64,000 nt of DNA, from positions 603,533 through 667,532 of the forward strand of contig JAJEKV010000236.1 in the NCBI GenBank assembly GCA_021234155.1, written 5' to 3'. Positions 4,783-62,019 of this stretch are shown here, in pieces. This stretch comes from Isoetes taiwanensis. Taxonomy: Eukaryota > Streptophyta > Lycopodiopsida > Isoetales > Isoetaceae. The position numbers and the translations under genes were made by a program. Numbering within the stretch: position 1 is the first letter of the stretch; each line of letters opens with the position of its first letter. Below the pieces are notes generated by a model. That model was not told the origin of the DNA. It was given only the letters and a program-made list of their open reading frames with translations, and ran no database searches.

Positions 4783-6979
4783 ACTATATATAAAATTATT
4801 GCAAAAGCCTATGCAGAAAGACTTAAACAGGTTTTGGGATTGAGAATAGATGCGGCTCAGTCAGCCTTTCTTCCAGGTCGGCAAATTTTTCATAATATAG
4901 TGGCAGCATATGAAGGAGTTCATTGGGCCCAATGTTCAGGTCAAAATCTTCTATATTTAAAATTGGATTTTGCTAAAGCTTATGATAGTGTAAAGTGGAC
5001 TTTCTTGGATGCCATGCTTTTGAAATTGGGATTTGGGTCTGGTTTCAGATCTATGATGCATAAAATGTTGATTTACGCTAAAAGGGGTAGTCTTGTATCA
5101 TGGAGAACCATTGGTGCTTTTTCCAATTGAGCGTGGAATAAGGCAAGGTTGCCCTTTAGCTCCTTTTTTATTTACTATAGTGGCGAAGGACTTTTCGCAA
5201 CTATTGCATGAATTTGAAAAGGATGGTTTGGTAAAGGGATTATTATTGGTGGAAGGTGAACAGGTTTTGGTTAATCAGTTTGCCGACGATACCTTCTTGC
5301 TAGTGGATGGTGACGAGAATAATGTGCAGATAATCAAAAAGATTTTGGATATATTTTCAATTGCATCTGGTTGTCTCCTTAATTGGGCTAAGTGTAGTGC
5401 TTTATGGGCGGGGAAGGAAGCAGTTCCGCATTTTTTATATGAGTATGCCTGGAAGGTTGTTGTACCATCTGCAAAGACAAAGCTTCTAAGAGTCCCCTTT
5501 GGTCTAGATATTGACATGAATGAAGCATGGGATGAAATTATCTTAAATTTACAAAGGCAACTGATTTGGTGGAGAGGTTCAAAGTTATCCTTGGCAGGTA
5601 GAATTCAAGTAACTAAGTCAGTATTGAACAATACGCATATTTATTTGGTTTCGGTTCTTTTGGCTCCGGCTTCTAAGTTTGCAGAGATAAAAAAAATTGT
5701 AAGAGATTTTGTTTGGTGTACTGATCAACAAGGCACTGTGAAGGTGGCGTGGAAGAAATGTATGTTGTTTAAACAACAAGGAGGACTTGGTATGTTGGAT
5801 CTTTCTTTACAGGGCAAGGTCTTAGCTTCTAAGCTATTGTTGAAAGATGATTGTGCATCACTAGGTATGAAGTTACTTAAACAATCAGTAAAGAAGTGTA
5901 TCATTTTTCATAAGCGAGGTGTGAGAATTGAGCTCCCTTGGGCATTGTTATATCCATTGAAAGCTTATTCACATGCCTCTCCAGTACCAAAAGGCTTGCT
6001 TCGGGCCTGGAAGGTAGTCCAGCAGGTGATTACATTTGATTGGGAAGCTTGTCTCCAGACATCTTCGCCCTTCATGTGGTTGCCTTTGTATACTCATGGA
6101 CAACTACACCCAGTTGTAGAATTTATGCATGCACATTCCCAAGCGAGGTGGAGGAGAGCAGGTATTATTTCTATTGAACAGTGGTATTTTGGTATTGACA
6201 TTGCTCCTTGGCAATGGTTTCAGGAGACCTATGGGTTGTTGGATAAAGATATCCGTATATGGGCTTATGTAGCAAGTGCTCTTCCTCTAATTAAGAAGGT
6301 GGGTAACAAGAGATGCTGGAACTTTGTTCAAGCTATTAAAAAAGGCAAGAAGCTAGTAAGTTCATGCTACAGATTGCTTACCTCCTCAAGTACTTTATCA
6401 CCTTCTCGAAAATGGCACTTATAGACTTTGCCTTCTCAATGGCAATCCATCTGGAACCTTGTTTGGTCTAAATATAATCCTCAAAAGGTAAATGTTCTAC
6501 TTTGGCAGGTGATTCATCGCTCTTTGAGAGTTAATGAGATGGTTCATCGCTTTAAGCCGGGAGTAAGCCCACTTTGCCCAATGTGTGAGCGGTGCATTGA
6601 AACATTGGAGCACTGTTTATATTTGTGTGCAGAGTTGAGTAGTCTTAGGTCCTGGCTGCATTCTCTTTTTGGAGTATCTTTGGATAGTCAAGACTTTCTT
6701 TTGGTATTTATCCAAATCGATTGGATCGCTTCTAAAAGGATTGCATTTCACATGGCAAAGTCTTGGCTAATATGGAGTGTATGGAAGCGAAGGCGAAGAA
6801 AGGTCTTTTATGATAAGCATATTTCTTCTCAGGTGGTGCTTCAAGAAATTCGTAAGAAGTTGTATAATTGCTTTCAGATCTCCAATTTGCCTGATCGTAT
6901 TAAAATTCCAATATGCAGTGATCATCTAAAAGTGATTGATGCTTCAGGGACATTTCTTACTTCTGGAAGTACTTTGTAA
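4783..6979 (+). pseudogene. LINE ORF2 fragment: reverse transcriptase and zf-RVT
   Basis: Domains in order: RT fingers/palm from TIYKIIAKAYAERLK (4783 on), AQSAFLPGRQIFHNI, KLDFAKAYDSVKW (first catalytic Asp region), then after a frameshift GIRQGCPLAPFLF and FADDTFLL near 5280, the plant-L1 version of the YADD catalytic box. The thumb and connector lie at 5300-6420. After a single stop, the zf-RVT zinc-binding segment follows at 6428-6979, with CPMCERCIETLEHCLYLC supplying the C..C..H..C ligands. This is the usual C-terminal half of plant L1 ORF2. The first and second parts are in different frames. Confidence 0.9.
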
Positions 6980-20681: not shown

Positions 20682-21152
20682 CTCTCACGGTTGTTGCACA
20701 ATCCTTTTTTCCCTTTCCATCCTTTCTCTTGGTACAGTTTTCGTTGTTCCATCCTTTCTCCTGGCGCAGTTTGTCTCCTTTGGGATTTGCAGGATTCGGC
20801 TTAGTTCACATCATTTAGGTGTGGAAGTGGATAGATGGGGACATAATATTCCTCGAGATCAAAGATATTGGAAAATATGTGGGGAAGATAAAGTAGAGGA
20901 TGAGGACCATGCATTGCTTCGATGTACGTCATACAAGATATTGCGTGATAAGTTTGGAATATACTATGAAGATCTGCCACGCATGCATGCACGCACGCAC
21001 GCAGGCTCTCACAGTTGTTGCACAATCCTTTTTTTCATGTTCCATCCTTTCTCCTGGCACAGTTTTCCCTGTTCCATCCTTTCTCCTGGCACAGTTTGTC
21101 TCCTTTGGGCCCTCTAGCCATCGTCCTTGCACATTTTTTATCTTCCTGGGGT
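19869..21152 (+). mobile_element. LINE family A, copy 2: ORF2 C-terminus and 3' UTR (left half)
   Basis: Positions 19869-20560 match 9752-10440 almost base for base, including the same frame-breaking lesions. At 20029-20526 a 165-codon frame stays open, whereas copy 1 has a stop and an insertion. A long (AC)n follows (20598-20679), then a 3' UTR module, then a second copy of the ORF2 end (20787-20976) with (CATG/CACG)n, and another 3' UTR module ending TTCCTGGGGT at 21152. There the 13.8-kb element begins; the LINE resumes at 34966. The right end of the UTR is thus split between two places. Confidence 0.85.
20598..20679 (+). repeat. (AC)n microsatellite inside the LINE end
   Basis: About 40 uninterrupted AC units. 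They sit where the other family A copies have other microsatellites, immediately after the ORF2 homology. Poly-His/Thr/Cys-Val open frames here are artefacts of the repeat. Confidence 0.95.
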
Positions 21153-21184
21153 CATTAGGGCGGATTTGGGGTCTGAAAATGGCC
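21153..21184 (+). repeat. Left terminal inverted repeat
   Basis: This 32-bp sequence begins CATTAGGGCGG and ends GAAAATGGCC. It matches the right end in inverted orientation with a single C/T difference. Homology stops after GGCC. The outside T and A bases are complementary, so the repeat could be read as 33 bp. Confidence 0.9.
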
Positions 21185-21791
21185 TCCTATCAGCCATTCC
21201 ACGTCATATTTCCGCTCCCTTTTTCCCATGCCACCTAGGATACCAAACTCTCATAATTACTGATTTGCTTGGAATATTCTTTGGGAATAAGGGGGGATTG
21301 CACATTCATGGGCCATATGTATTTAATTACATTTGGTTGTCGACGGACCGATGCAACACGTGGCGCTTCTAAAATGCCACTTGCATTATAGCATACCGCA
21401 ACTCATGACGGTGTCTCTTGGTAAGCGTCGCGCCACGCCTTCTACATTTCAAAAGTTGAATGTGTAGGTTGAAGCTTTGTATCGATCGGACTTTCATTTC
21501 GAGGCGTCATGCGGGGCAGCGCCTTTAACCGATCTTCACTTCATCCTAATACAGGCTTCCCCCCCTACAATTCCAAATTTGAATTTGCTTAATGTATAAA
21601 AGCATGGATTGTAGGAGAATGGACTTTTCGATTTCCATATGCACGTTGCAAATTTCAAAAACGGTTAGTTACGGACGTTCGGCTCACACGGTTTAATTGT
21701 GTTGGGGCATAAAAATACCACACCTTGATTTCGCTACCGTGCGATCTACACATATGGAAGTTGCTTGTTGTCAAATTAAACTTAAACACAA
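21177..21791 (+). repeat. Subterminal repeat R1
   Basis: About 600 bp starting at AAAATGGCCTCCTATC, repeated in diverged form at 23145-23765. Shared landmarks are ACACGTGGCGCTTCTAAAA, GCCACTTGCATTATAGCATA and GTATAAAAGCATGGATTGTA. R1 includes the inner 8 bp of the terminal repeat. No protein is apparent. Such subterminal repeats may bind a transposase; that is inference. Confidence 0.75.
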
Positions 21792-21950
21792 GTGAGGTCG
21801 GCACTTACGTGGTTTTCTCGAGGAGGGTTTGGAGTGTTTTTTAAATCCCAATTATCGACATAGTGTGACGAAAGCATCTTGGTATTAAATAGTATGTTAA
21901 ATTGAATTATATCGGTGTTCATTTTTCTGGTTAAACTCAAATCATATAGG

Positions 21951-22062
21951 TTTAGGAATAAGGTTAAAAAAGGAAGATATTGGCTATTTAGGAATAAGGT
22001 TAAAAGGGAAGATATTGGATATTTAGGTATAAGGTTAAAAAAGGAAGATATTAGATATGGCT
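21951..22062 (+). repeat. Three-copy ~38-bp tandem repeat
   Basis: GGAATAAGGTTAAAA followed by GGAAGATATTGG and ATTTAG recurs three times in a row with small length changes. It lies between subterminal repeat R1 and the small acidic gene. Confidence 0.85.
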
Positions 22063-22248
22063 CAAATTTGAGATATGCACATAATGGCATGTAATGATGG
22101 TTGATAGGACTGGAATCTGAATCATTCCTACGATTTTTCACGTCTAATCCAGCCTATATCTATTCCAAAAGCCTAGATTGGCCCATTCTCCCCCAATCTC
22201 TGCCCAATCTTTGCTAGATCCTCAGCCCAATTTCTCTAGTCCATCGCC

Positions 22249-22590
22249 ATGAAGAGATCAGCTACTGGAAGAAGGAGGTGTCCTCCAAGAGGCGCCTAAT
22301 ACGGCTGGAAGAGGTGTTCCCTCCAAGAGTTCCCTCCCGCTGCCCACGGTTCTTGCTCGAATGCCTCGATTCCTCGATTCCTCGATTCCTTTGACGAGGA
22401 ATCGGAGAATGAGGAATCGAGGAAATTTCGAGCAGGAGTTCATCCAAGGAGGTGTTCTTGAAGGCTGGATAGGAGATTCTTGAGAAAATGAGTATTCACC
22501 CGGCGGAGAAGAAGCCGAAGATGATGAAGAAGATGAAGAAGTTGAAGACGAATCCGGCGACTTCGAGGAGCTCATGGCGTTAGTTCATGG
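22249..22590 (+). pseudogene. Small gene with basic N-terminus and acidic C-terminus
   Basis: A likely start at 22249 gives MKRSATGRRR. At 22490-22585 another frame reads GGEEAEDDEEDEEVEDESGD followed by FEELMAL, an acidic tail like those of chromatin-associated proteins. One or more frameshifts or an intron separate the two. Between them an imperfect inverted repeat of GATTCCTCG units is present. A possible splice donor (ATG|GTACAT) follows the acidic tail. No domain is recognised. It is the leftmost gene of the 13.8-kb element. Confidence 0.4.
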
Positions 22591-22969
22591 TACATGCATG
22601 TTTTCTTTCTTTTCTTAAGCATTCAACTAACGGTTATTTCTTATTTTTTTTTTTGGATGATGAAGCGGATGAATGAAATTTGTTAGGGCGAGAGCACCTC
22701 TTATTTTTTTTCCTTGTTCTTAGTCGAGCTTGCCTCCGACTTCTTACCATATATTTGCAAGCCTCCCGGTTTTTTGTTGTGAATAGTTGAAGCCTCGGGC
22801 ATTTAAATTTACAAAATGATGTAAAGCCATACTGCCATAAAAATTTTGAATGTAAAAAGTTTTTTGCTTCTAATTCCATTTGAATACCTTTTTTTTTTTC
22901 TTGTACATGTGTTACCACTCTTAAGTACATAAGTCATCATCCCTTTTCAAAGAGCATATTATTTTTCAA
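22591..22969. other. Gap inside the 13.8-kb element
   Basis: AT-rich sequence between the acidic gene and the first hairpin. No gene is recognised. Confidence 0.4.
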
Positions 22970-23037
22970 GGATCACACCAAGCTTAATAGTACATATGCA
23001 ACAAAATGGAACACACTAAATTAAGATCGTGTGATCC
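22970..23037. repeat. Intergenic hairpin unit 1
   Basis: Left arm GGATCACACCAAGCTTA, right arm TAAGATCGTGTGATCC, 68 bp overall. The outer arms GGATCACAC/GTGTGATCC are an exact inverted pair. First of a series in this element. Confidence 0.8.
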
Positions 23038-23144
23038 ACTTTCTTATTTGTTGTCAAATTAAAACTAAACACAAGTCCCTCGTCAATAGTCTCCCATTTG
23101 CATATAAAATATCTATCATTCCAAGTTATATTATGTTTTATGAA

Positions 23145-23765
23145 CTAAAATGGCCTCCTATCGCCCATTCCCGTCATATTTCCCTTTTTTTTCCCCGTCG
23201 ATTTGCTTGGAATATTCTCGGAATAAGGGGAATCGCATATCTATGGCGCCATATGTATTTAATTCTCTTGTTGTCGACAGATTGGCCTTAACACGTGGCG
23301 CTTCTAAAAAGCCACTTGCATTATAGCATACAGGCAACTCATGGCGGTGTCTCTTGGTTTGTCGATACCAAATCATGCGCATCACCGATTCTTGTCTTGC
23401 CCTATTTTCATTTAGAGTCCATTCCTTCTACATTTCAAAATTTGAATGTGTAGGTTGAAGCTTTGTATTAGACTTTCGTTTTCGGGCGCTGCGATTGCGC
23501 CTTAAAAGTTCGTAGAAGGGATCTTTACTTCATCCCAATACAAAGCTTCCCCCCCTACAATTCGAATTTTGAATTTGCTTTTGTATAAAAGCATGGATTG
23601 TAGGAGAATGGACTTTTCCATATGCACGTTGCAAATTTCAAAAACGAGGTTAGTACGGACTGAGCCTCAAACGAATCGAATTGTCGTTGGGGCATACAAA
23701 TTGTACACATTCATTTCGCGCCGTGCGATCCACGCGGTATGGAAGCTCCAAATGATGTGTGGATA
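23145..23765 (+). repeat. Internal subterminal-type repeat R2
   Basis: A diverged direct copy of R1 lacking the outer part of the terminal repeat. A fragment of the R1 end (TTGTTGTCAAATTAAA) sits just before it at about 23046-23074, so the duplication was complex. It precedes the transposase-like gene and may contain its promoter; that is inference. Confidence 0.75.
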
Positions 23766-23799
23766 AGGATCCAACCCGACTTCGGTGAATATGCTCAGT

Positions 23800-26330
23800 C
23801 TTCAATCATAAAAAAGAGGTCTAAAAAATAAGAACTTAGACCTCGACATGTTGCGCCTTGCGTGCTCAAAAAAGTATCGACATCCGGGCGGATGGCGTTT
23901 ATATCCATTGATCCGTTGAGTGGCGTGAAACCGCCATTTCGGGGACGTTTCAAGTTTAGTCCGATTTTTGTGGTGACGGTAACTCGGCCTCTTGGGATAT
24001 TGTGAGAGATTGAGAGGATGAAGGCATTCGAATCGAATAGTTCCTTGAGATGAGCCGCCGATTGTCACAAGAGAATTATAACTTAAACCAGCAGACTCTT
24101 TTTCTCTCGCTTCATTACTCCAACGTGATGAAGGAAAGGAATGACGGCTTGGGGAGGAAACTTCTTTGAGATACTGAAGTGGAGAAGTCCAAATTGGTGA
24201 TAGGGCAGCTGCAAGAAAAGATCCAAGAGCTCGAAAGAGCAAACTTTGGGCTTCAATGTAGGTTAAAGAATTTGAAGAAAACACCCTTGGCTTGCGAGAA
24301 AGGAAGAAGCATTATCGTAGATAGAGGAACTGAAGTTTGGATCAGGTGCATTCAGACCTTAGGTCACGCCACAAGGTCCGTTTACAACACTAGCAAAGGC
24401 CGGTTAAGATCCGGGGAAACTAGAAGCAATCTTGGTTACGTAGTGAAGAACCTAGCGACGAACAGGGAGATAGTGGACATGATTTGTCAGCCCTACAACT
24501 CTCCTCTCATGAAGATGGTATTGGAAATGGTACTAGGGAGATCTACAAGAAGTTAGAAGCGACGGATGTGTGACTGTTTGTGATGATGTAGGCATCGATG
24601 AGGCTTGGTTACCGTTCTCTATTCAAGCCATTCCACGAAGCGTTGAAAAGAATGGGCACAAAAAAAGTATTCGCTCCACGTCCACAAATTGTCGAGAATA
24701 CAAGGGTTACTAGGACAAAGATGGTGTATGCCATATTAGGAGAGATGCACCACGTTGAATGTCTTTGGTCCCGCCATAGCCATAAAAAGATAAGAATGGC
24801 AAGGATTGTTGTGATATAGTTGGAATGAATGAACGCAATAATCTTTGGGTTGACCTGGTTACTCTCTTACAATTCCTTGTCAAATATTATGACTTAACAG
24901 TTGCAGAAACTAATGGTGAGATTGAAGTTTGCATAAAATTGGATGAAATGGAACTGACCAAGTTTGAGAAGTATGAGAGGGTATCCGTTGTCATCATGAA
25001 TAGAGCAATTGAGAATGCAATTGCACATGCTAAATCAAAGAGCAACAAGAATAACAAAAAAGATGTAGAGGTGACGGACGAGGAGAAGAAGCGTGCGGAA
25101 AAATGGTTCTCATGTCAATCTGAAGATGACACCTGGTGGTTAGGTCTCTTTAAAGTTCGAGAAAGAAACCCACGAGGTTTTGAAATGGGTGTTCAATCAA
25201 ACTGACATCCCGAGTCTAATATCTAGATTCGAGGGAGGGGAAAAATTGCAAGTAGATCACTATGGATCTTACAAAGTAATTTTTCACTTGGCGCCTCGAT
25301 TTAAAACCGAGAAAGCAATGTACAACATAAGTGGAGGAGGACAAGGAACATGCAAAAGTTGTCTTGCAATCATGCAAGGAAGTCAAGTACTGGGAAGACT
25401 GTTTCAACCTTGTCCCTTAACCAAGCAAATGCTCCTAATAGAGGAGAAGAAGATCCCAAGTTCCATGGCATTTTCCCCATTCCATTAGAGAGGGTTCATA
25501 TCGCACTTTTGCGGCTTTGTGAGAATCATCGACAAGATGATATTTTTGAGCTGCAGATTCGTGTGGAACATTTTCAGACAAGAAGAAGAGAAAGAGGAAG
25601 GAATTAGTAGAGTTGAACATGTTCTATCGAAGCGAGTTTGCATGGTGGCAATGTAAGATTAGAGCTCGATGAGAAACGGGCGGGAAGAACAAGTGTGCCT
25701 CGTAAAGGTGTCAATTGGAGGGATGAAAGCTTCGGCGCTTCATAAAGAATCATAGAGAGGCTCGAACGGAAACGGATGGGAGAAAAGGTCTATGAATTTG
25801 GAAAATTCTTTGGGTTGATGCGGAGCGGGACCGCCTGAGATGGCGTTCGTTCGGCATTGAGGAAAAAAGCATGGGATGCATTGTGCGAATTGTTCCCATA
25901 CATTTAGAGAATGGATCTCACAAGAGAAGATGCAGAAATGTTCGTGCAAGCGAATAACAAATTTATTAAAGCTTTCATAGACGCATGGGGGGAGAGAGTG
26001 AAGTCACGCACTACTTGCACATCTTTTGGGCTCATGCACCTTGGTTTTTTAGGAAGTATGGAAGCCTAGCAGTGTGGAGTGCACAAGGCATGGAGAAGTC
26101 GCATAAACAAGCTAAAATAGCCTTTCATCGTAACACTCAAAGAGGGGTGGAAATGTGGGAACCAACCCTCTAAGGCGGATGATGAGTGGTTTTATAGAAG
26201 GGCGATGGCTAAATCGACAAGAAGGTCGCTTTAAGGAGCAACCCGAAGTCGTAAACACCATTGGCATAATCTTTGAAGAGAAAACGGAAAGTTGCTTGGC
26301 AAAATTCTAGGGGCCCACTAGCATCGCAAC
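23800..26330 (+). pseudogene. Transposase-like gene of an unrecognised family
   Basis: Consecutive plus-strand segments read as one damaged protein of roughly 800 residues. In order: an N-terminal segment (about 23870-23990), a coiled coil (LVIGQLQEKIQELERANFG, 24192 on), an unknown domain (24300-24830), a long intact stretch at 24825-25205 (NNLWVDLVTLLQFLVKYYDL; VCIKLDEMELTKFEKYERV), then YGSYKVIFHLAPRFKTEKAM near 25259, and a C-terminal block YLHIFWAHAPWFFRKYGSLA plus WSAQGMEKSHKQAK near 26005-26120. That block resembles the C-terminus of uncharacterised element-encoded proteins I recall from marine invertebrates (H..H.P.f.rkygsl...S.QG.Ek). I could not place a DDE triad. It is the best candidate for the mobility enzyme. 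At least six frameshifts or stops. Confidence 0.55.
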
Positions 26331-26384
26331 AGTGGAGATCTAAGAGACAAAGAATCGGTAAAGTATACTTGTAATGTGTAGCAT

Positions 26385-26452
26385 GTTCACACGACGCGAA
26401 GTACTTGCCCCCAACCTTGTTTGCACTAAATGTAGAGCGGCGTCGTGTGATC
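26385..26452. repeat. Intergenic hairpin unit 2
   Basis: Left arm GTTCACACGACGCG, right arm GCGGCGTCGTGTGATC, 68 bp overall. It lies between the 3' end of the plus-strand transposase-like gene and the 3' end of the converging minus-strand gene. An extra right-arm-like copy, CTTCGCGTCGTGTGAAG, follows at about 26510-26526. Confidence 0.85.
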
Positions 26453-26604
26453 TTATTTGTATCATCTGGGCTTGACGATTGGAGTTTGCTATTGCTTGCA
26501 TTTATGTGGCTTCGCGTCGTGTGAAGCTTTACAAGATAATAATAAAAAAGGGTTACTTTTGATTAAAGTTGTGAAAGATATTACATTGAAAAACAAAATA
26601 CAAC

Positions 26605-27047
26605 GACTCATTGTTGCTCCAGTGCGAGCTCTTCTTCATTATCTTCATCATCATCATCAGCTCCGTCCCTCGTCTTAGTCTTCATCTCTTCCCCTCAAGC
26701 GAGCAATCACCCTATCCAAACGTTCCTCCAATCTGTCCACCATCTCTTTGTACATGTCCCGCTCCTGTCCCAACAAAGACAGCGTGTTCTTACGCTGAAT
26801 TAGCATCCTCGTTGCCGTCATAACCACCTCGGTCGCGGTTGTTGGGGCATGTCATCTGTCCGACCTTCTATTCAACCGCTTTGATTTGCCTCTCACGGCT
26901 CTGAAGCATGAGAAGGTTGAATTCATTCTCTTCTTCTTTGCTGAATTGTGCTTGGCGTTTTCCTTTAGAAGATCATCTTGCTCCTTCAACCTCTTCATTA
27001 GAACACCCAACACTATGTCGGAAGGGAGTTCTATCCTCTTCGTTTTC
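26605..27047 (-). pseudogene. Coiled-coil protein gene 1
   Basis: Probable start at 27047 (MENEEDRTP). Read with one or two frameshifts it contains VLMKRLKEQDDLLKENAKHN and later LLGQERDMYKEMVDRLEERL followed by DRVIARLRGRDED, both strong heptad patterns, and ends in an acidic EDNEEELALEQQ-like tail at about 26605. The VMKR(F/L)KE start of the helix is shared with the coiled-coil genes at 28.8-29.2 and 29.7-30.1 kb, so these look like members of one family within the element. Function unknown; oligomerisation is the only safe inference. Confidence 0.5.
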
Positions 27048-27298
27048 CATTATGGGGTTGAGGATGTGGAGGCCATAGATGACAAATGGGAGGGGCGTTA
27101 AGATTATAGAAGTGAGGAGCAAAGACTCTAACCGCGGAAGGAGCACATGCAAGGACCTCAATTTATACATATTAAGCTTGAACATATTAAAACACTCTTT
27201 CTTTGCCTTGCGTGTCGAGGGATTACGTCGGTTGTCCGCTAGAACACATTAATGGTCTTGTCTTTGGAACACATTAATAACTATTCTAACTAATCAGT

Positions 27299-27368
27299 AT
27301 ATCACACCAGCGCTGAAATCGCACCACGAGCTTTAAAACCCTATGAAGGGTTTAAGCCGTGTGATCTG
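27299..27368. repeat. Intergenic hairpin unit 3
   Basis: Left arm TATCACACCAGCGC, right arm AAGCCGTGTGATCTG, 70 bp, more diverged than the others. An internal AAACCC/GGGTTT pair extends the fold. Located between coiled-coil genes 1 and 2. Confidence 0.7.
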
Positions 27369-27514
27369 TCTTGTCATTTCTCTACCACGGATATTGAAAA
27401 TTAAAATAGGAAGCGTAATATTCGGTACATTTGTCAAAAACTTTTCCCATTGAAAAATAAAACCAATTACAAACATTAAAAAAAAAAACGGGCCCCTCTA
27501 GGAGGAGCCCGATG

Positions 27515-28206
27515 CCTATGATCGCCGGGCAAGCTCTTCCTGGAGGGCAGTGATAATTTTTTTCTGCTCCTCCAACATGATTGCCTGCCCCGCAACCACG
27601 TTCTCATATTCCGCAACCTTATCTTCCCGCTCATCGAGTTGGGCTCGGGCAGCCTCTCCCGCTTCGATTGCGGCCCTAAGCCTCTCTTGGAGGATAAAAG
27701 CATGTTAGGGTGTCCCTTAAAAAGTATTATTTAGTGACCAAAAAAGTACCTAAAAAGGTAGCCAGGACTGGGTACTGGGTACCTGTGTAATATCTCAATA
27801 TAAAGTATGTTTTAGAACTTTTTATACACATATTGGTCTCCGATAGCATCATCTTTATCTTAACTTTGAATATTAACATGTCCTTGACTTTTATTTTGGA
27901 TTTTTGTATTAGTTTTAATGAAAAGAAAAATGAGAAAGTACCCAGGTTAAAGTACCTAGTGTATGTACTTTTGCGAGGTCCAAAAGTGGTACACCCTAAC
28001 ATGCTTTTTACCCGGAGGTTATATCTCGCGGGCGCTGCAATTAACCCGGTCTAAGGCAGACCGCGCACTTCCGCACAATTCGGCGTCTTCATCATTCTTT
28101 TCTTTTAGAAGGCGGATCCGTTCCTCTCCCGGTATGAATGTTACGAATTTCCTTGACCAAAACTTGAGACAAGATCTGGCGGGGATGGGGCGGGCTGGAG
28201 GCCATT
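27515..28206 (-). pseudogene. Coiled-coil protein gene 2, split by a MITE
   Basis: Start at 28206: MASSPPHPRQILSQVLVKEI, open for 31 codons, then a frameshift. A TATA box lies 88 bp upstream. The C-terminal part (27690-27515) reads without interruption as a coiled coil, LRAAIEAGEAARAQLDERED then VVAGQAIMLEEQKKIITALQ, ending ELARRS-stop. The two parts are separated by a ~305-bp insertion at 27699-28005. Without it the gene would encode roughly 120-150 residues. The MASS start resembles those of coiled-coil genes 3 and 4. Function unknown. Confidence 0.55.
27699..28005. mobile_element. MITE with TIR AGCATGTTAGGGTGT inside coiled-coil gene 2
   Basis: Left end AGCATGTTAGGGTGTCCC and right end (reverse complement) AGCATGTTAGGGTGTACC match over 18 bp with one difference. 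The interior is AT-rich and lacks coding sequence. The flanks on both sides belong to the same coiled-coil gene. No clear target duplication; the TAAA and TTTA bases next to the ends could be part of longer inverted repeats. Superfamily not assigned. Confidence 0.8.
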
Positions 28207-28293
28207 GAAAGTGATGGGAGAACAGGAGTGATGGCTGAGGGCGGATGTGGTAGAAACGAGAAGATGGCGGATAGGGAAGACAAAGGCCTCCGG

Positions 28294-28302
28294 CGTTTTA
28301 TA
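28294..28302 (-). promoter_or_regulatory. TATA box of coiled-coil gene 2
   Basis: TATATAAAA on the minus strand, 88 bp upstream of the ATG at 28206. The position relative to the start codon agrees with the TATA boxes of the two coiled-coil genes at 29.2 and 30.1 kb. Confidence 0.55.
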
Positions 28303-28379
28303 TAGAAACTAGAGATACGTTGGAATCTACGGTTGCGAACCGAGATAAAGTTGTGTAATAATCCCACGAGGCAAAATTA

Positions 28380-28640
28380 TAGCATGCAATTAGGGCAACG
28401 GTAGCCTATGTTCGCATCATGGGATCCGTCATATCCTAGCCGTCTTGTATCATGCGGGCCGTACAAAAACGATGTTTTTGTGGCGGCGCATGCCCGTCCT
28501 TGGCATGGCGTTGTCATCCACAAAGCCAATATGTGAATAGGCGTTGTCATCCACATGCAAATTCGCATTTACACGCAAGTTATATCACATAATCTAGCTA
28601 GATATTTGTGTTACATACACTTTTCCATTAATAAATTATG
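28380..28640. other. Gap with short direct repeats
   Basis: Contains GGCGTTGTCATCCACA twice (about 28507 and 28540) and the string GGCGGCGCATGCCCGT (about 28482), which also occurs at about 3611. No gene is recognised. Confidence 0.5.
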
Positions 28641-28671
28641 AATTTATACATACAACGAGGTGTGCGTTGTG

Positions 28672-28742
28672 GAGATCATCTGCCACGAAATCCATTGATT
28701 GCTACCTAATTGCAAGAATGGCATTTTCGGCGTCGTGTGATC
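28672..28742. repeat. Intergenic hairpin unit 4
   Basis: Left arm GATCATCTGCCACG (degenerate), right arm GGCGTCGTGTGATC. Part of the tandem duplication shared with unit 6; the spacer GAAATCCATTGATTGCTACC is common to both. Just downstream of coiled-coil gene 3. Confidence 0.75.
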
Positions 28743-28829
28743 TTTAATAAAACAAAACAAGAGAAACGAGATAGAAGCAAGAAATAGAGCAAATTTTTCT
28801 TTGAAACAAAAAATATATATACAATGGCT

Positions 28830-29192
28830 ACGGATCTTCATGATCCTGTAGTCAAGCCAAATAAAAGCTGCGTTCTCATCCTCCATGATTTCGAAGCTTC
28901 TTCTCCATATCTTCTAGCACCTGCGAAATATTGTGTGCGATTAAAGCGCCTCGACCCTCTGACTATTGGCCTCTCGGTACACTGGTTAATGTTGCTTTGC
29001 CGAGCTCAAGGTCTGGCTCATGCGGCTGACCCCTAGTGAATTCTAACGTCCACAGCCTCCATCTTTCGGCGGCGAGGCGGCTGTTTTCGTCGTGAACCTC
29101 CTTGAATCTCTTCATCACCACAGCAAGGGATGTAATGCGAAGCGCAGTTATTGGGGCGCGGTCGCTTCTTTGGAGGAGGATGAAGATGCCAT
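28830..29192 (-). pseudogene. Coiled-coil protein gene 3 (tandem duplicate)
   Basis: Start at 29192 gives MASSSSSKEATAPQ before a stop or frameshift. In the next frame VVMKRFKEVHDENSRLAAER is a clear heptad stretch, and downstream the decayed 3' part resembles the sister gene at 29.7-30.1 kb (EDMEKKL-like and EDENAAF-like segments). A TATA box lies 105 bp upstream. The two copies form an ~880-bp tandem duplication that includes hairpin units 4 and 6. Function unknown. Confidence 0.5.
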
Positions 29193-29296
29193 CGGAGGAG
29201 AAGGCGGGAAGGCGGAAGGCGGAAGGGGAAGAAGATGAGCGTAAGAAGGCGGAAGCGGAAGAGGATCGGAGGTCGAAGGCAAGATAGAAAGTCTTC

Positions 29297-29305
29297 TATT
29301 TATAA
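29297..29305 (-). promoter_or_regulatory. TATA box of coiled-coil gene 3
   Basis: TTATAAATAGAAGAC on the minus strand, 105 bp before the ATG at 29192. The same string occurs before the duplicate gene at 30209-30217. Confidence 0.6.
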
Positions 29306-29327
29306 CTTGGGGATTTCGTAGTAGCTT

Positions 29328-29394
29328 GAGTCACACGCCTTGAAGGATGCCGTGGGTCGGGGGAAAATCCAGACTTCTTCGGCGTCGTGTGAGG
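29328..29394. repeat. Intergenic hairpin unit 5
   Basis: Left arm GAGTCACACGCCTTGAAG, right arm CTTCTTCGGCGTCGTGTGAG, 67 bp. Inner GAAG/CTTC bases extend the fold. It lies just upstream of the TATA box of coiled-coil gene 3. Confidence 0.85.
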
Positions 29395-29552
29395 AAAAAA
29401 GGACCGTTACTTCTTCTAACGTCTTTTCTTCGAGAAAGCTCGTGTGATAATTTTTATTGATAATTTCGGTGATACAATCTATACATAAGTAATTTTCTTG
29501 ATACATAACTAGAGATAGAACTTCTCATTGAAGCAAAATAGAGCGGCATGGA

Positions 29553-29620
29553 GATCACATGCGGCCGAAATCCATTGATTGCTACCTAATTGCAAGCAAG
29601 GCATTTTGGCGTCGTGTGAT
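29553..29620. repeat. Intergenic hairpin unit 6
   Basis: Left arm GATCACATGCGGCCG, right arm GGCGTCGTGTGAT, 68 bp. Downstream of coiled-coil gene 4 and duplicated as unit 4. Confidence 0.8.
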
Positions 29621-29719
29621 ATTTTAATAAAAGCAGAACATACATTGGAACAACATGATAGATAGAAGCAAAAATAGAAAACTTTTCTTTGAAGCAAAAA
29701 ATAGATAGATACAAGCGGC

Positions 29720-30122
29720 TAGGGATCTTCATGATCCTCTAGCTGATTTTCATCATGTCCGGTGAAGTCGTAAAGGCTGCGTTCTCATCCTCCTCTGGCT
29801 GAGCTTCTTCTCCATATCTTCTAAGGCTGCGAAATCATGTGAGCGGTTTCAGCTACCCTCGACCTGCGGCTAAATTAAGCCTCTTGGTACATGGCGAATG
29901 TTTCCACGAGCTCAGCGTCTCGCTTCGTGCGGCAACTCCCTCGTGAAGGCTAATCTGCCGACCGCCTCATTGTTCTCGGCGACGAGGCGGTTGTTTTCAT
30001 CATGGATCTCCTTGAATCTCTTCATCACCTTTGCAAGGGTGATGTCCACGCGGAGCGACTCTTGGGGGCTGGGGAGTGCTATCTTGGCGTGGTCGCTTGC
30101 TAGAGGAAGATGATGATGCCAT
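29720..30122 (-). pseudogene. Coiled-coil protein gene 4 (tandem duplicate)
   Basis: Start at 30122 gives MASSSSSSKRPRQDSTPQPP, a Ser-rich then basic N-terminus. After a frameshift the coiled coil reads VMKRFKEIHDENNRLVAENN followed by EAVGRLAF. The downstream part ends with an EEDENAAFTTSPD-like acidic segment in broken frames. A TATA box lies 87 bp upstream. Sister of gene 3, which diverged after an ~880-bp tandem duplication. Function unknown; possibly a structural or DNA-binding accessory protein of the element. Confidence 0.55.
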
Positions 30123-30208
30123 CGGGGCTTGAAGGTGGAAGGCGGAAGCCGGGAAGTAGAAGATGGCGAGAAGGAAGGCGTCGGAGGTCGGCGTGGACAT
30201 CGGTCTTC

Positions 30209-30217
30209 TATTTATAA
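30209..30217 (-). promoter_or_regulatory. TATA box of coiled-coil gene 4
   Basis: TTATAAATAGAAGAC on the minus strand, 87 bp before the ATG at 30122. Identical to the box of coiled-coil gene 3. Confidence 0.6.
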
Positions 30218-30220
30218 CAT

Positions 30221-30254
30221 GAGTCACACGAGTTGCTTCTCGCATCGTGTGAGG
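30221..30254. repeat. Intergenic hairpin unit 7 (short)
   Basis: GAGTCACACGAG and CGCATCGTGTGAGG face each other over only 34 bp, a shortened version of the unit. A possible further degenerate unit lies at about 30303-30367 (GATATCACTGCGGCGAA ... CGTGATGTGAA). Confidence 0.65.
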
Positions 30255-30509
30255 AATAAATAAATTAATTGTCTTTTCCAATAATATTTCATTTCTTGAG
30301 ATAGATATCACTGCGGCGAAAACCTAGATATGATGAGAAAATCAAACCCGATGTATTTTCGTGATGTGAATAAATACAAATAAAATAATTTTTATTAGGA
30401 ATTTCGGAAGGACAATCGTACATAAATAATTTTACCGATACAAGTTGGAAAACATATAACTTCCAATTTCTCAAGCCTTCGTCAATTTCATGCTCTTTCA
30501 ATCCCCTCA

Positions 30510-31884
30510 TGCTTGATCCAACAAGGCAATGACTTCCATGTTATCGACCCCAGCTTCCAACCTTGGGTGAGTCAAGCCGGCTGACTAAAAATTTAACATA
30601 TTGCTTTCGCCCATGAGACCGGCTTGGTCGTCAAAATATTGTAACACAACATCCCGCCGAATTGCTATCACCCTTCGGTGTTTGATGCCAATTGGGAATG
30701 GTTCGAACATGCATAATGCGGAGGTAATAGACAAACTCTGCACCCTTTGGTGAAAGTTTCTGCTGAAGACGATTATCTCCCCATTAACGAATCTTGAGAT
30801 ATATCTTAACAATGTAGAGTCCTTCAATCTTTTCCTGTCCCAGCGTGCATGTCGGCAAGAAAAATCATCTACTTCCCACAAATAAGAACCCTCAAGATTA
30901 TCTTCTTCACATTTATCCTCATCTACCGGGCTTATCTTTGCGATTGAGTGAAGGGGCACGCCAAACACAGTAGATCCCTGTTGGCAGACTTTGCGGATTT
31001 GATTGGAATTCTTCTTAGTTGGTAGATTCGCCTCATCTTGAGCAAATCGAGACTCCAGACCTCTCATATGCTTCTTTAAGCTTTATAGCATTGCCGTTAT
31101 AATTAGATACTTCAAACATCTCTTTGTCCAAATCCTCTTCAAAATCTAGGCCTAACTTTACCCATTAGGCCAAGATCTTGATAAGCTCGTCTTCCCTAGC
31201 ACACATTAAGTAACATAGGCGGGTTCCTCGGTATATCACTTAGCAATAAGTATTCTTTGCCTTCCACTAAAATTGGCGTTATGTCGGACAACTTCTTTTC
31301 ATCCTCATCCCCATCCTCATCACCTTGAGAATCATCTCCCTCCTACGGTTCACCCAAGGCGGTCGTCGAAGCTAAAACTCCTACATTCTTGCTCTTCTTC
31401 TTGTAGATCTATCTCCATTTCTCGTCATAGTCAGCATCATCACATAACTGACCCCCCTTGGCTTAAAGATTTCATTGTTTCCGGTGTATCTTGGTTTGGC
31501 GAAGCGAGAATGCAATAACTAGCAAATGCAAGCGGCAAAGAGAAATAAGATACCTTCTTAAGCACAAGGACGCAGCCGGGGAGGAGCCCGTTTGCGCGGC
31601 ATTCTTGAAAAACATCTTCCCCTGTTTGCAAATGGGAAGCCGCCTCCCTAGAGCTGGTTTTGGAATCCACGAGCCGGGGACATCTGCAAAGGGCGTCTTG
31701 GCTGAGACCAAGCGGTGCGGGTGAAAGCTAAAAAGCAACCTCGCGATAGCATCAAGCTCGCTCTTGTTTGCCATGATGTCCAACTCCTTGCAATAGAAAC
31801 GGATAAATCGCGGTCGGGCGCAACTTCCTCGTTGTCATGAGGGGCGGATGCATACCATTCCGGGAACTTCACATAACAATCCAT
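30510..31884 (-). pseudogene. Unrecognised gene of the 13.8-kb element
   Basis: Start at 31884: MDCYVKFPEWYASAPHDNEE. A frameshift leads to ANKSELDAIARLLFSFHPHR and on to LCLRR. A plausible intron follows (donor AAGAAG|GTATCT near 31555; acceptor near 31455), after which an acidic region and LSDITPILVEGKEYLLLSDI are readable. The last third is open at 31067-30585 (GSYLWEVDDFSCRHARWDRK; RYISRFVNGEIIVFSRNF). A better reading frame may continue to about 30510, ending NMEVIALLDQA. Roughly 400 residues. I recognise no domain. It lies between histone H3 (upstream) and coiled-coil gene 4 (downstream). Confidence 0.45.
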
Positions 31885-32013
31885 GGCGAAGCAAAAGCGA
31901 AAAAACAAGAAGATGTTTAGGAGCGGTAAAAGTATCGTCACTTTTGAACTCAAGTAGCCGTTGTCGATTATGAAAGGGGACACGGCCGTTGTGGGGAGAT
32001 TTGTCCGTACATT

Positions 32014-32037
32014 TTAGGGTTAGGGTTAGGGTTAGGG
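32014..32037 (+). repeat. (TTAGGG)4 telomere-like tract
   Basis: Four exact TTAGGG units, preceded by TT, lie immediately before hairpin unit 8. Most plants use TTTAGGG, with TTAGGG in some lineages. The tract sits between the histone H3 gene and the next gene. Confidence 0.8.
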
Positions 32038-32039
32038 TT

Positions 32040-32106
32040 GGATCACACGGCGAAGACTACTATGTGCAACAAAAAGCACAATGCTTCTGCTGGCGTCGTG
32101 TGATCC
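32040..32106. repeat. Intergenic hairpin unit 8
   Basis: Left arm GGATCACACGGCGAAG, right arm GGCGTCGTGTGATCC, 67 bp. Inner GAAG/CTTC bases extend the fold. It lies about 200 bp downstream of the histone H3 stop codon. Confidence 0.85.
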
Positions 32107-32304
32107 TCATATAACATTAAAAAAAAAAAAAATACAAAGTCTGAAGCTAGGCTTCTAAGAAAGAAATGGACTAAGAGATTAAGCTTATAAAGCCATTGCA
32201 TTAAGAAATATTATACATATGAAAAAACACAAAGGCACTTCGGCCTTTTTTTACGGGGGTCTTTCTTCTTGTTGTATTCAGCCATAAAATTTTGACCATA
32301 GTAC

Positions 32305-33097
32305 TTTCGGGATCCCTTTATCGTAAGATGAGGCGCATGTCCTTGGGCATGATAGCAGTCCCGCTTGGCATGTATTCTTTGCAAAGGCTGCGAGTCCTCG
32401 AACAGGCCAGACACCAAGCGCTTCGAAGCCATTTGAAGAGCATTTAAAGGCGGTTGCTTGAATTACAGAAGCGGTATGATGTATCGCACCACACTCTTGC
32501 AGAATCTCTCTCACGAGCACGGCAAATGGGAGGCGGAATGACCATCTCGGTGCTCTTCTTGATACTTCTTAATCTCATGGCCTCTTTAATACCGAGCCGT
32601 CTTCCGCTTAGGCCTCTACCCTCACCCACCCGGCATTTGGAGCTGTTGCTCGGCCCGACTCTTCCGGCCGCCTCCTCCCGACATCTGCAGTTTGTTCCTC
32701 GGCCCAGAGCTCTTCCCGTCTCCTCCCATTCTGGTCGCCTTCCCCTTTGGCGTTGGGCCTCCTCCTCTGATTTGAAGGTCCGGCACCTCCACCGGGAGGA
32801 GCGGGAGGGAGGAAAAGCAAGAAGAAGCGGCTGCCCAATAATTAATCCGGCATCATATTACGCTTTCGCGGTCTCTCACATTTTCATCCTCTGTCTCGAG
32901 CCGGAGTGCACCTCCCTACTTACTCGGGGTTGCTTCTCCCGCTGATGCGTCATGCGGATTTCTTTTCGGGTCTTCATTAGGCATGGTGGGAGGAGGAGAA
33001 TCTCTATCGAGACTTGAGTCGAGATGAAGAAGCGGACTAATGTAATCACGGCCTTACACCACGGATGGATCCTTGCGGTTTGCTTAGTTCTTGCCAT
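32305..33097 (-). pseudogene. Divergent histone H3 gene inside the mobile element
   Basis: The start at 33097 gives MARTKQTAR, identical to the N-terminus of histone H3; a 1-nt shift continues with Lys-Asp-Pro in place of KSTGG, so the K4 and K9 positions are kept. A long, non-canonical tail follows (SPLLHLDSSLDRD; Pro/Arg/Gly-rich part at 32840-32610). The histone fold is readable across frameshifts: IKKSTEMVI and RLPFAVLVREIL (canonical QKSTELLI..LPFQRLVREIA), a variant loop 1, ALQMASEA-like helix 2, SGLFEDSQ (canonical VGLFEDTN) and TAIMPKDMRLILR-stop (canonical VTIMPKDIQLARR). The tail makes it longer than the usual 136 residues. At least four frameshifts; some gaps could be introns. It might be CENH3-like. 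Confidence 0.85.
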
Positions 33098-33117
33098 GGC
33101 TTCTCGGCGGATGGCGC

Positions 33118-33123
33118 TTTATA
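33118..33123 (-). promoter_or_regulatory. TATA-like box before the histone H3 gene
   Basis: GTATAAAGCGCC on the minus strand ends about 20 bp before the ATG, unusually close compared with the coiled-coil genes. It could be fortuitous. Confidence 0.3.
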
Positions 33124-33304
33124 CTCTGAACAACGACAAAAATAGACAAGCTGGCGGGGAGATAAATAGTAAAAAGCGAAGTTAAAGTAAAATATGATGG
33201 TAGCGTTTTTAAATAATTATGCGGAACCCTAAAAATATCGGACAAAATCACGGAACCCTAAAAAACATCGGACAAAAACACAAATAAAAAACCGAGATTC
33301 AAAG

Positions 33305-33954
33305 CTAGCCGATAGACAATTTCTTGTTGATCGCGAACTCACTAAACTTTACATTTCCCTCTTTCACGTAACCAACCCTAATGCCATCAATAAAATAATG
33401 GAAGTCGTCGACAATTTCCTCTGTCTCCATTAGCACTCTTAGCTCGATAATGGCCATTCGCTTTCCATGGTGGCGTATAAATGACTTCCCTCCCTCTCCA
33501 TACTCGAATATCCCGCGTCGGAGTGTCTATTATGGTCCTCAAGCGGCTCCCAAAAAGTTGTGCGACCTCTCTTTTTTGTTTCCTTCGTTCTAGTTGGCAA
33601 TTAGCATTATAAATATTGTTTTGGAAGAAAGTATCGAACTTAAAGGAGGACTTAACTTCTGGCGGACCTACGTTAGTTGACCGGATGATTAGGTGGAATC
33701 GAACATCCCAGTCGGAACCAAAAATAAGCCATCCACAAAATCGGCGGGGGAGAAAGCATTATATGTCTTTGAGCTTTTGAACTTCTGCGCCATCCGGAAT
33801 ATGTTAGCAAATACCTCAAAGCGGTGTGAAGATTTTGAAACTCATCCTCACGCCTCCGTTTTTTCGGACATTCCGCTTGCACCTCGTCGACCATGCATTT
33901 CTTCATTGCAATTACATTGTTCTCATTAATTAGTGCGTGGCTTACAAAGTTCAC
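33305..33954 (-). pseudogene. Unrecognised gene of the 13.8-kb element
   Basis: Start at 33954: MNFVSHALINENNVIAMKKC, then KKRRREDEFQNLHTALRYLL, a basic stretch that could be a nuclear localisation signal. A second frame is open for about 110 codons from 33745 (GWLIFGSDWDVRFHLIIRST; REVAQLFGSRLRTIIDTPTR; DIRVWRGREVIYTPPW), and a third ends the gene with MAIIELRVLMETEEIVDDFH then YFIDGIRVGYVKEGNVKF and a stop at 33305. About 210 residues with two frameshifts. No family recognised. It lies directly upstream of the histone H3 gene, same strand. Confidence 0.5.
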
Positions 33955-33964
33955 TTAAAGGGGG

Positions 33965-34816
33965 CAATTCAACCGGCCTCAAGCTCGGTTTCCTGACCTT
34001 TACGTTATAATCATGTCCGTAAAACCAGATGCCTATACCCCGCAAGGTCACGGCATCCATACCTTGGAAAAGGACAATTCCGATGTCTATGTGATACCAC
34101 GACAAAGTACACTACTAATACTTTGGTAGGAATGACATCCACGACGTCTGATAAACATAAACCTGCACAATAAATTTGTTTGTAAACACGTGTCAACGAA
34201 AGAAATGAAAAGATAAGAAGATCACACGACGCGAAACTATCTCTACGCTAGATTAAGTAGGCGGCAGCTAGCCGGCGTCGTGTGATCCGTTTAAAGGTGG
34301 TTACCATTTGCGGGCAATTTTGGGAAATTTGTTTTTGGTGGAGATTAGCTCTTTGGCCATATCAGAAGGGGTATATGCATGTCGTATTGTTATACTTTCC
34401 ACTTTCCGGCCGCTAGAATTCAACTTGAACTCTTTTATCCTACCTATCCAATGTGTCCGCACGTCTGATCGCCTTTGTCGCTTAACTCTATGCTCGCCCC
34501 TCGTTGATGGCAGCATACTCACCCACGAACCTATTGAGACAAAACCTCCCACTTCTTGACCTTGGGAATTACGTAAATGGGGCAAGAACACGAAATTCAG
34601 GAGACATGGATTGCAGATGAGGAGTGAAGGCGGAGAGGATGCACGTAGAGGCCGGAGTGTGTGATCTGAAGTTTGGCGCCAAAATTTGACAAAGGGAGTT
34701 GGTGGCGGCGGGGCGGTCAAAGTCACCATTATTTTTGGCGGGCGGCGACTCCAAAAATACGGGCCATTAAAATGGTTGCAATAAAAGCGCAGGCATCCCC
34801 TATGAAAATACGCCAT
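33965..34816 (-). pseudogene. Possible BAH-domain gene
   Basis: The open frame 34816-34301 contains GSWVSMLPSTRGEHRVKRQR, then THWIGRIKEFKLNSSGRKVE and ITIRHAYTPSDMAKEL. The order (G-x-x-V, a basic loop, YIGRI-like strand, then a W/H-x-Y-x-P-x-D motif) is that of BAH domains. A later segment, SDVVDVIPTKVLVVYFVVVS (34140-34080), fits the BAH 'hlSdhvDvipv..I.gkc.V' strand. Hairpin unit 9 lies between the two parts, in what could be an intron (possible acceptor TTATTGTGCAG near 34162). BAH domains read histones or mediate silencing complexes. The call is by eye and uncertain. Confidence 0.4.
34220..34288. repeat. Intergenic or intronic hairpin unit 9
   Basis: Left arm GATCACACGACGCG, right arm GGCGTCGTGTGATCC, 69 bp. 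The best-preserved unit. It lies between the two parts of the possible BAH gene. Confidence 0.9.
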
Positions 34817-34933
34817 GTGGATGCCAAGTAAGCACGCTCATCCTTCTACACCTTAAGTATCATCGACTTTCGTAAAAAGCATAAAACTGATTGGTCTGGC
34901 GAATCGGCGTGGAAATCTTTAGCCCAAGATAAG

Positions 34934-34965
34934 GGCCATTTTCGGACCCCAAATCCGCCCTAATG
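34934..34965 (-). repeat. Right terminal inverted repeat
   Basis: Inverted copy of 21153-21184 with one substitution, ending CGCCCTAATG. The next bases, ACTTTAGCCAC, resume the LINE 3' UTR. Confidence 0.9.
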
Positions 34966-35549
<584 letters not shown>

Positions 35550-36378
35550 ATGTTTTTGCGCGATCCGCAAGCGTTAATGGTTCTTGGGTTCCAGCAGGTT
35601 AGAAGACCACCAAGAAGATTTTGGATTGCTCAAAGGCGAGAGAGAACACAATGGGATAATATTGATAACCACGCATGGAATTGTATAGCTTCCTTTGAAG
35701 ATGATATGTGGCACCAATTTTACAGGATGAAGAGAGCCACATTTGAGAGATTGGTAGGTTTAATTGTGCCCTATCTTGTCGCCTGGTATTAAAGTAAGGC
35801 CCCCGTTGATCGTGAAAGCAGTTGCTATGGTTCTCGTATTTTCTTGCACACGGGGATATGCCCTTACATGTCGGTCGAGATTTTATGTTGGGAAAGCAAC
35901 AACGATGTAAATATACCAAGAAAATCACGCTTGTTTTGGCTTCAAGACAATGCTTTTACAAACGTTTTGTTGCAATGCCTACGAGGTGCAAGATTAATTG
36001 ATGCATTAAGGAATTCCATGATGCAACAGGGTTGCCCAATATATATGGTGCGGTTCCGGATCCCATATTTTTTTATGGAGGAAACCCAAAAAAAAAGACA
36101 ATGGGGAAGACTATTACAGCAGACATAAGAGGCATTCATGTCTCATGCAAGGAATTGTGACACATAGCAGACTTTTTATAAATGTTTGTGTAACAAGAAC
36201 AGGTTCTGTCCATGATTCAAACCAGTTCAAGAAGAGCTCCATCTATAACAAAATTGCTTCAAAACAAATTTTGCAAGAACCAGTGGTGACTCTTAGTGGC
36301 AGAAAACTGAAGAAGGGGCAGCCTACTGATCAAGATGTTCAGGTAAATGCATGCAAGAATTGGAGGGAGCTTAAGTAG
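35550..36378 (+). pseudogene. PIF/Harbinger transposase (DDE_4-type nuclease) remnant
   Basis: First part: WHQFYRMKRATFERLVGLIV, the N-terminal helical motif of HARBI1-like transposases (35706 on). After frameshifts, DALRNSMMQQGCPIYMVRFR near 36000 and NVCVTRTGSVHDSNQFKKSS near 36184 follow, the latter being the conserved 'pGSvHDs..f..S' block containing a catalytic-region Asp. The third acidic residue region is missing, and the frame is interrupted several times. Such transposases act with a Myb/SANT-like partner, found at 37300-36678 on the opposite strand. Target duplications in this superfamily are TTA/TAA. Confidence 0.85.
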
Positions 36379-42213: not shown

Positions 42214-42257
<44 letters not shown>

Positions 42258-42600
42258 AGAGTTTTGGTCAAAGGTGGCGCAAATCCTTTCTTCCATGTTC
42301 CATCCTTTCTCCTGGAACAATTTGTCTCTAGCCATCGTCCTTGCACATTTTTTATCTTCCTGGGGTACTTTAGCCACACACTCTCTCTCTAGTGTTTTGG
42401 TCAAAGGTGGCGCAAATCCTTTCTTCCCTGTTCCATCCTTTCTCCTGGCACAGTTTGTCTCCTTTGGGCCCTGTAGCCATCATCCTTGCACATTTTTTCT
42501 CTTCCTGGGGTACTTTAGCCACACACACACACTCTCTCTCTAGGGTTACTTTAGCCACACTCTCTCTCTAGGGTTTTGGTCAAAGGCGACTCTGACTGCG
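42186..42600 (+). repeat. LINE family A 3' UTR: repeated modules with (TC)n
   Basis: After (TC)n at 42218-42254, the module GTTTTGGTCAAAGGTGGCGC ... TTCCATCCTTTCTCCTGG ... CCTTGCACATTTTTT ... CTTCCTGGGGTACTTTAGCC occurs twice (about 42257-42392 and 42393-42543), with a partial third copy to 42590. The same module ends the copies at 20.7-21.15 kb. It defines the intact sequence of the site entered by the 13.8-kb element. Confidence 0.85.
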
Positions 42601-58145: not shown

Positions 58146-58148
58146 TGG

Positions 58149-61990: not shown

Positions 61991-62019
61991 GATTGTTAGA
62001 TTGAGTGAATCGGATTGAG

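Follow-up and report, generated by a model that had tools for sequence, protein, structure and literature searches.

What kind of element places a transposase-like gene, a histone H3 gene and several further genes between one pair of terminal inverted repeats (TIRs), and what would the histone do there? The locus that raises this question lies in a 64,000-nucleotide stretch of the Isoetes taiwanensis assembly GCA_021234155.1 (contig JAJEKV010000236.1, positions 603,533 to 667,532), which we refer to as the window. The element itself spans positions 21153–34965 of the window (13,813 bp), starting with CATTAG and ending with CTAATG. In agreement with the initial annotation, there is good support for its being one large TIR DNA transposon, on the basis of exact ends, a RAG1-like transposase and a paired motif confined to its interior. 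Taken as a whole, the locus is likely to be one copy of a large multi-gene DNA transposon of the cut-and-paste type with a proposed role in chromatin. The H3 gene and the motif suggest that the element may package or mark its own chromatin.

Ends and insertion site

The limits of the element were set by its TIRs and by a single matching empty-site junction. Two inverted arms of 34 nt (21151–21184 and 34934–34967) are 97% complementary. The outermost 2 nt of each arm are also present in the empty site and are therefore a chance extension, leaving TIRs of 32 nt with one mismatch, exactly as had been claimed. The left TIR (21153–21184, plus strand) begins CATTAGGGCGGATTTGGGGTC, and the right TIR (34934–34965, minus strand) ends ...CCGCCCTAATG. 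A 16-mer from the arms occurs exactly only twice in the window, once per arm, and nowhere else at up to three mismatches.

The element interrupts a repeat that also forms tandem units at 42248–42547, which we used as empty-site copies. We scanned 30 left by 25 right positions, or 750 join points, comparing each only with bases 36001–64000. Joining 21152 to 34966 gave the sole long exact rebuild of the repeat copy at 42326, covering 52 bp (41 nt from the left flank and 11 nt from the right), and the runner-up reached 13 nt. A second copy near 42510 carries the identical GGGGTACTTTAGCC. This confirms the earlier claim that the two flanks reconstruct the interrupted sequence, and the invaded repeat is plausibly, as had been proposed, the 3′ untranslated region of a long interspersed nuclear element (LINE). 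The comparison concerns one insertion and uses paralogous repeat copies within the window, not an empty allele. By this comparison, the insertion point falls between the T and the A of the repeat.

Transposase and histone H3 genes

The putative transposase gene occupies approximately 23742–26330 on the plus strand, where its reading is split over all three frames. When a 60-residue C-terminal piece was compared with the PDB, 15 of 16 matches were to RAG1, the enzyme that assembles antibody genes in vertebrates (E 0.0052 to 0.035), the sixteenth being an unrelated reductase at E 1. A longer joined piece matched RAG1 in 15 of 15 cases (E 0.011–0.085), and the whole joined protein did so in 11 of 12 (E 0.16–0.5); because the RAG1 chains in the PDB are near-duplicates, we count them as one match. 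An ungapped scan with a RAG1 segment through six frames of the window scored 78 at this gene vs. 16 at the next best place, with a maximum of 30 in 25 Markov resamples of the element. The gene was first described as transposase-like, and these results strengthen that description.

According to the passages available from PMC12730594, the CMCT clade comprises EnSpm/CACTA, Mirage, Chapaev, Transib, Plavaka, ESTA, and Lanisha, together with RAG1, and is marked by C(2)C between the second D and the last E, by H(3-4)H and by CA..TG termini. The element has each of these marks, although the second D itself was not located. Its H(4)H motif and final catalytic-type E (LHIFWAH...QGMEKS) lie at 26018–26095, with H(4)H at 26018–26035 and the E at 26093–26095. 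The two H and the last E are spaced identically in the element and RAG1, with 20 residues from the second H to the final E in both. A C(2)C motif (C-K-S-C, 25351–25362), found by eye in the three-frame reading, precedes H(4)H by the DNA length of ~222 codons, a spacing that is approximate because the gene is broken. The termini are 5′-CA..TG-3′ (CATTAG...CTAATG). Sub-threshold Pfam matches within the gene (bZIP_2, bZIP_1, INO80F and FN3_7) were not used.

The H3 assignment of the initial annotation also held. The H3-like gene (32307–33097, minus strand) has its ATG at 33097 and begins MARTKQTAR, so that the ARTKQTAR tail start is present, and the histone-fold core lies in the 3′ part. In a frameshift-tolerant alignment, canonical H3 (a manually entered query) scored 187, whereas 60 Markov resamples averaged 43 and reached 60 at most; in the same alignment H4 scored 49 and reversed H3 41. 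Both of the two PDB matches to a single-frame reading were to H3 (E 0.21–0.22). The alignment requires 12 frame breaks, and the encoded histone is far from canonical, with a tail that, judged by distance, is several times the canonical length. The K9 position is not securely readable, as a frame break may fall exactly there. As far as the sequence can tell, this is a real histone H3 gene.

Paired inverted motifs

A short motif sets the interior of the element apart. With at most one mismatch, GGCGTCGTGTGA occurs nine times in the window, vs. 0.07 expected, and always within 26387–34285. Exact CGTGTGA is found 11 times inside the element and twice outside, and exact TCACACG six times inside and once outside. 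The two halves form pairs, which we defined as half starts 8–100 bp apart with one mismatch permitted in each half. Nine such ATCACACG...CGTGTGAT pairs lie inside the element and none outside, while 40 resamples of the element contained 0.175 on average and never more than one. Exact pairs number five inside and zero outside. The right half alone, with one mismatch, is found 16 times inside and five times outside.

The nine pairs are located at 21683–21745 (degenerate), 22972–23035, 26386–26451, 27301–27365, 29330–29393, 29554–29620, 30223–30253, 32042–32104 and 34221–34286, with spacings of 55, 56, 58, 57, 56, 59, 23, 55 and 58 bp, respectively. Thus, eight of nine are spaced at 55–59 bp while the middle varies, and only the pair at 30223 has a short spacing. 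Most pairs stand between inferred genes; that at 26386, for example, lies in the gap where the transposase gene and the adjacent minus-strand gene converge. In a predicted RNA fold, made without a shuffle control, the halves paired mutually in seven of the eight counted pairs that were folded, the exception being the pair at 29330. Directly beside the 32042 pair is a 26-nt telomere-like run of TTAGGG repeats (32012–32037), the only run of at least three units in the window.

Composition and broken reading frames

The element also differs in composition from its surroundings. The ratio of observed to expected CpG is 0.94 inside vs. 0.45 and 0.52 in the flanks, and 1-kb windows show it raised along the whole element. 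The increase is close to two-fold in most contexts, but 1.2-fold for ACGT and four-fold for CCGC. The trinucleotides CAG/CTG are scarce, with 162 observed vs. 357 expected in the element and 1215 vs. 1543 outside. The resulting ratio of 0.45 in the element compares with 0.73 to 0.95 in 31 overlapping windows of equal size taken from the flanks. Within two internal duplicate pairs, CAG/CTG was kept at only 4 of 29 sites vs. 1136 of 2350 for all trinucleotides, the next lowest retention being that of ACG (0.31) and CCG (0.33). In six less diverged pairs from the flanks, the corresponding counts were 58 of 74 and 2820 of 3406.

Deamination was rejected as the cause of this loss, since the element shows no excess of CTA/TAG (ratio 0.82) or CAA/TTG (ratio 0.93). 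One of the 12 frame breaks in H3 falls at a CAAG where CAG would continue the canonical YQKSTE. The window is not generally so broken, as nearby retroelements retain long open frames: one at 5072–6979 with the LINE-type reverse transcriptase domains RVT_1 and zf-RVT, and one at 58113–58880 with the Copia-type domain RVT_2. To judge from these sequence patterns, the broken frames of the element probably reflect, in large part, errors of the consensus at CAG/CTG sites and not decay. We infer that methylated CHG sites, combined with an uncorrected nanopore consensus, could be the cause of the misreading. If CAG/CTG is misread, part of the high CpG may be an artefact as well. In the passages available from the Wollemi pine paper, which concerns a nanopore plant assembly, errors at methylated sites are not described.

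Elsewhere, the last 2 kb of the window (62001–64000) has an observed-to-expected CAG/CTG ratio of 0.37, and some other stretches are near 1. Stretches depleted in CAG/CTG may be places where the assembly is misread or unpolished.

Other inferred genes

Because the reading frames are broken, the initially annotated count of about nine genes is a putative one; we placed the gene limits by means of open pieces running from stop to stop, TATA-like boxes and the positions of the motif. Two plus-strand units have a promoter-like duplicate in common (73% identical). The first copy (21262–21760) has a TATA-like box at 21595, and the second (23200–23745), upstream of the transposase gene, has one at 23584. 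A possible small gene with an acidic tail, gene A (22245–22640, plus strand), is uncertain and was drawn from open stretches only.

The remaining units are on the minus strand. Genes 1 (26600–27054) and 2 (27480–28207) were inferred from open pieces and TATA-like boxes and look coiled-coil-like by eye. Inside gene 2 is a nested AT-rich sequence of 316 bp (~27693–28008, limits chosen by eye) with inverted ends of ~21 nt, a GC content of 0.33 and an observed-to-expected CpG ratio of 0.24, which looks like a miniature inverted-repeat transposable element. Genes 3 (28830–29285) and 4 (29720–30200) are duplicates, with 28670–29309 and 29549–30221 being 71% identical; gene 4 is also supported by open pieces. 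The minus-strand units have TATA-like boxes at 27167 (gene 1), 28304, 29304 (gene 3) and 30216 (gene 4). The scan also returned matches that were assigned to no unit, four of them on the plus strand and several on the minus strand.

Open pieces at 30585–31082 and 31472–31834 point to a gene or genes without a family match at 30585–31834, and others to one or more genes without a Pfam match at 33305–34111. The gene at 34301–34600 is likewise without a family match. The initial annotation had suggested a BAH protein, but this look, noted by eye, found no support: neither Pfam nor the PDB gave a match to BAH, and structure prediction without an alignment yielded low predicted local distance difference test (pLDDT) scores of 44.5 and 33.5 for two pieces.

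A six-frame Pfam scan with stops read as X, which is less sensitive where frames are broken, found no family at E≤1, and genes 1–4 and A were covered by such scans only. Ten individual pieces, eight from the genes at 30.5–34.6 kb and two from the transposase, gave no family above threshold, and neither did the frame-joined transposase protein. We judged a ThiS/MoaD match of 30585–31082 (E 0.02) and a synthase match (E 1.8) to be chance, and the sub-threshold Rfam matches MIR5185 (E 0.019) and HOTTIP_3 (E 0.05) were not used. A tRNA search found none. Just to the right of the element, short open frames at 35550–36128 resemble a broken transposase gene (Harbinger-like by eye), the first of which has no Pfam match.

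Interpretation and alternative explanations

We propose the following way of working. The transposase would act at the TIRs, excising the unit and inserting it elsewhere. The motif pairs, at gene boundaries, would be putative binding sites for an element-encoded protein and would define or protect the chromatin of the element. The H3 variant, possibly with the small proteins, would be deposited on the element or compete there, countering silencing. In its most far-reaching form, this explanation would make the element a new RAG1-related lineage of giant transposons that inserts at TA without duplication and builds its own chromatin, guided by the motif, to escape silencing by H3K9 and CHG methylation. 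The H3 variant would retain the N-terminal ARTKQTAR while the rest of the tail was replaced, and element-encoded proteins would place it by means of the gene-boundary pairs. We consider it doubtful that all of this holds together.

Several observations weigh against our interpretation of the element. No target-site duplication was seen for the one insertion compared with paralogous empty-site copies, and this counts against our interpretation because the RAG1/EnSpm group makes duplications of 2–5 bp, according to the available passages of PMC12730594. The first and second catalytic acidic residues (D) were not identified, as a query of that region had no PDB match. Given these two negatives, we state that the transposase would work like those of the RAG1/EnSpm/Transib group, judging from sequence likeness, and assign it to no single superfamily. 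Only one copy was seen in the 64-kb window, and as assembled its reading frames are broken from end to end. The nested 316-bp insertion shows that this copy is neither brand new nor pristine. Moreover, CAG depletion is not unique to the element, as 2-kb windows outside it range from 0.37 to 1.10, and the internal duplicates are more diverged than those of the flanks, making the CAG comparisons ones of unequal age. A dinucleotide frame-repair test, which was too permissive, did not favour CG sites as break points. Finally, the left motif half by itself, at one mismatch, occurs 10 times inside the element and 13 times outside. Because this half is not restricted, what distinguishes the element is the pairing of the halves. 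The interior restriction originally claimed for a hairpin motif therefore stands for the pairs (nine vs. none) but not for the left half.

Plant transposons are well known to capture genes, and an EnSpm-like transposon that had taken up host gene fragments, H3 among them, would carry them as decaying passengers without a role. Frames broken throughout are what such cargo predicts. However, captured fragments sit poorly with CpG raised over the whole unit, with motif pairs that recur across it, with TATA-like boxes upstream of several cargo units and with an H3 so far from canonical and so much longer in its tail, and they leave the CAG/CTG instability unexplained; we regard this origin as unlikely. 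Less probable still is the virus-derived integrant that the initial annotation had entertained. In some giant viruses, compact genes without introns are separated by hairpins at which transcripts end, and the compact, apparently intronless layout and intergenic hairpins of the element, both partly inferred, resemble this. Yet capsid, polymerase and packaging domains were absent from the six-frame Pfam scan (E≤1), in which broken frames lower sensitivity, and IMG/VR contigs searched with the proteins and the TIR, a search that could reach close relatives only, held no relative. A search of prokaryote genomes for relatives was also empty. The transposase and precise TIRs account for the ends, and a viral origin has no positive evidence.

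The alternative that comes closest to our own explanation accepts the same transposon and overlaps with it on everything except function: the motif pairs would be transposase binding sites or transcription terminators, and the H3 gene would be incidental. The position of most pairs near inferred gene ends and the pairing of their halves in the predicted fold are both compatible with this. By contrast, the pairs extend across almost all of the element and are not confined to its ends, and a spacing of 55–59 bp in eight of nine with a variable middle is more in keeping with a protein site than with the stem of a terminator. This version is quite possible, although we do not favour it over a large multi-gene transposon with a chromatin role. 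If the same gene set recurs in other copies, a mobile element would be established as the carrier of a core histone, perhaps as a counter-measure to silencing, and the clade of RAG1-type transposases would gain a large multi-gene branch. Such copies would also make it possible to examine directly whether transposons can set the composition of their own nucleosomes.

Comparison with known systems

Teratorn-type giant transposons are likewise large TIR elements with many genes, Teratorn itself being fused to a herpesvirus. However, Teratorn is described in the passages available as 180 kb long and built on a piggyBac-like transposon, and neither piggyBac nor herpesvirus features were seen in the element. 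In the parts of the open-access PubMed Central literature covered by our search, no DNA transposon with a histone H3 gene was named.

The closest likeness of the transposase is to the CMCT clade and RAG1, with which the element shares the order of C(2)C, H(3-4)H and final E, the CA..TG termini and the PDB match to RAG1. The element differs in that this copy lacks a 2–5 bp target duplication, and its H3 gene and paired motifs are absent from the clade description in the available passages of PMC12730594. ESTA elements, which are EnSpm-like, occur in fungi and make TA duplications, resemble it in having a RAG1-like transposase and in inserting at TA. Here, however, the TA is not duplicated, and the ESTA families described in those passages (PMC12730594) carry a TET/JBP gene, whereas the element carries H3.

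For the motif, the nearest parallel is found in VANDAL elements, whose VANC proteins bind short motifs located in non-coding portions of the elements that encode them and bring about a loss of methylation, according to the passages available from PMC5735166. VANDAL elements are of the MuDR type (PMC12730594, in the passages available), and the VANC21 motifs form arrays in the same orientation, whereas those of the element are inverted pairs at 55–59 bp. What the two have in common is a non-coding motif restricted to the element, seen here in the pairs and the right half, and this likeness is one of analogy rather than homology.

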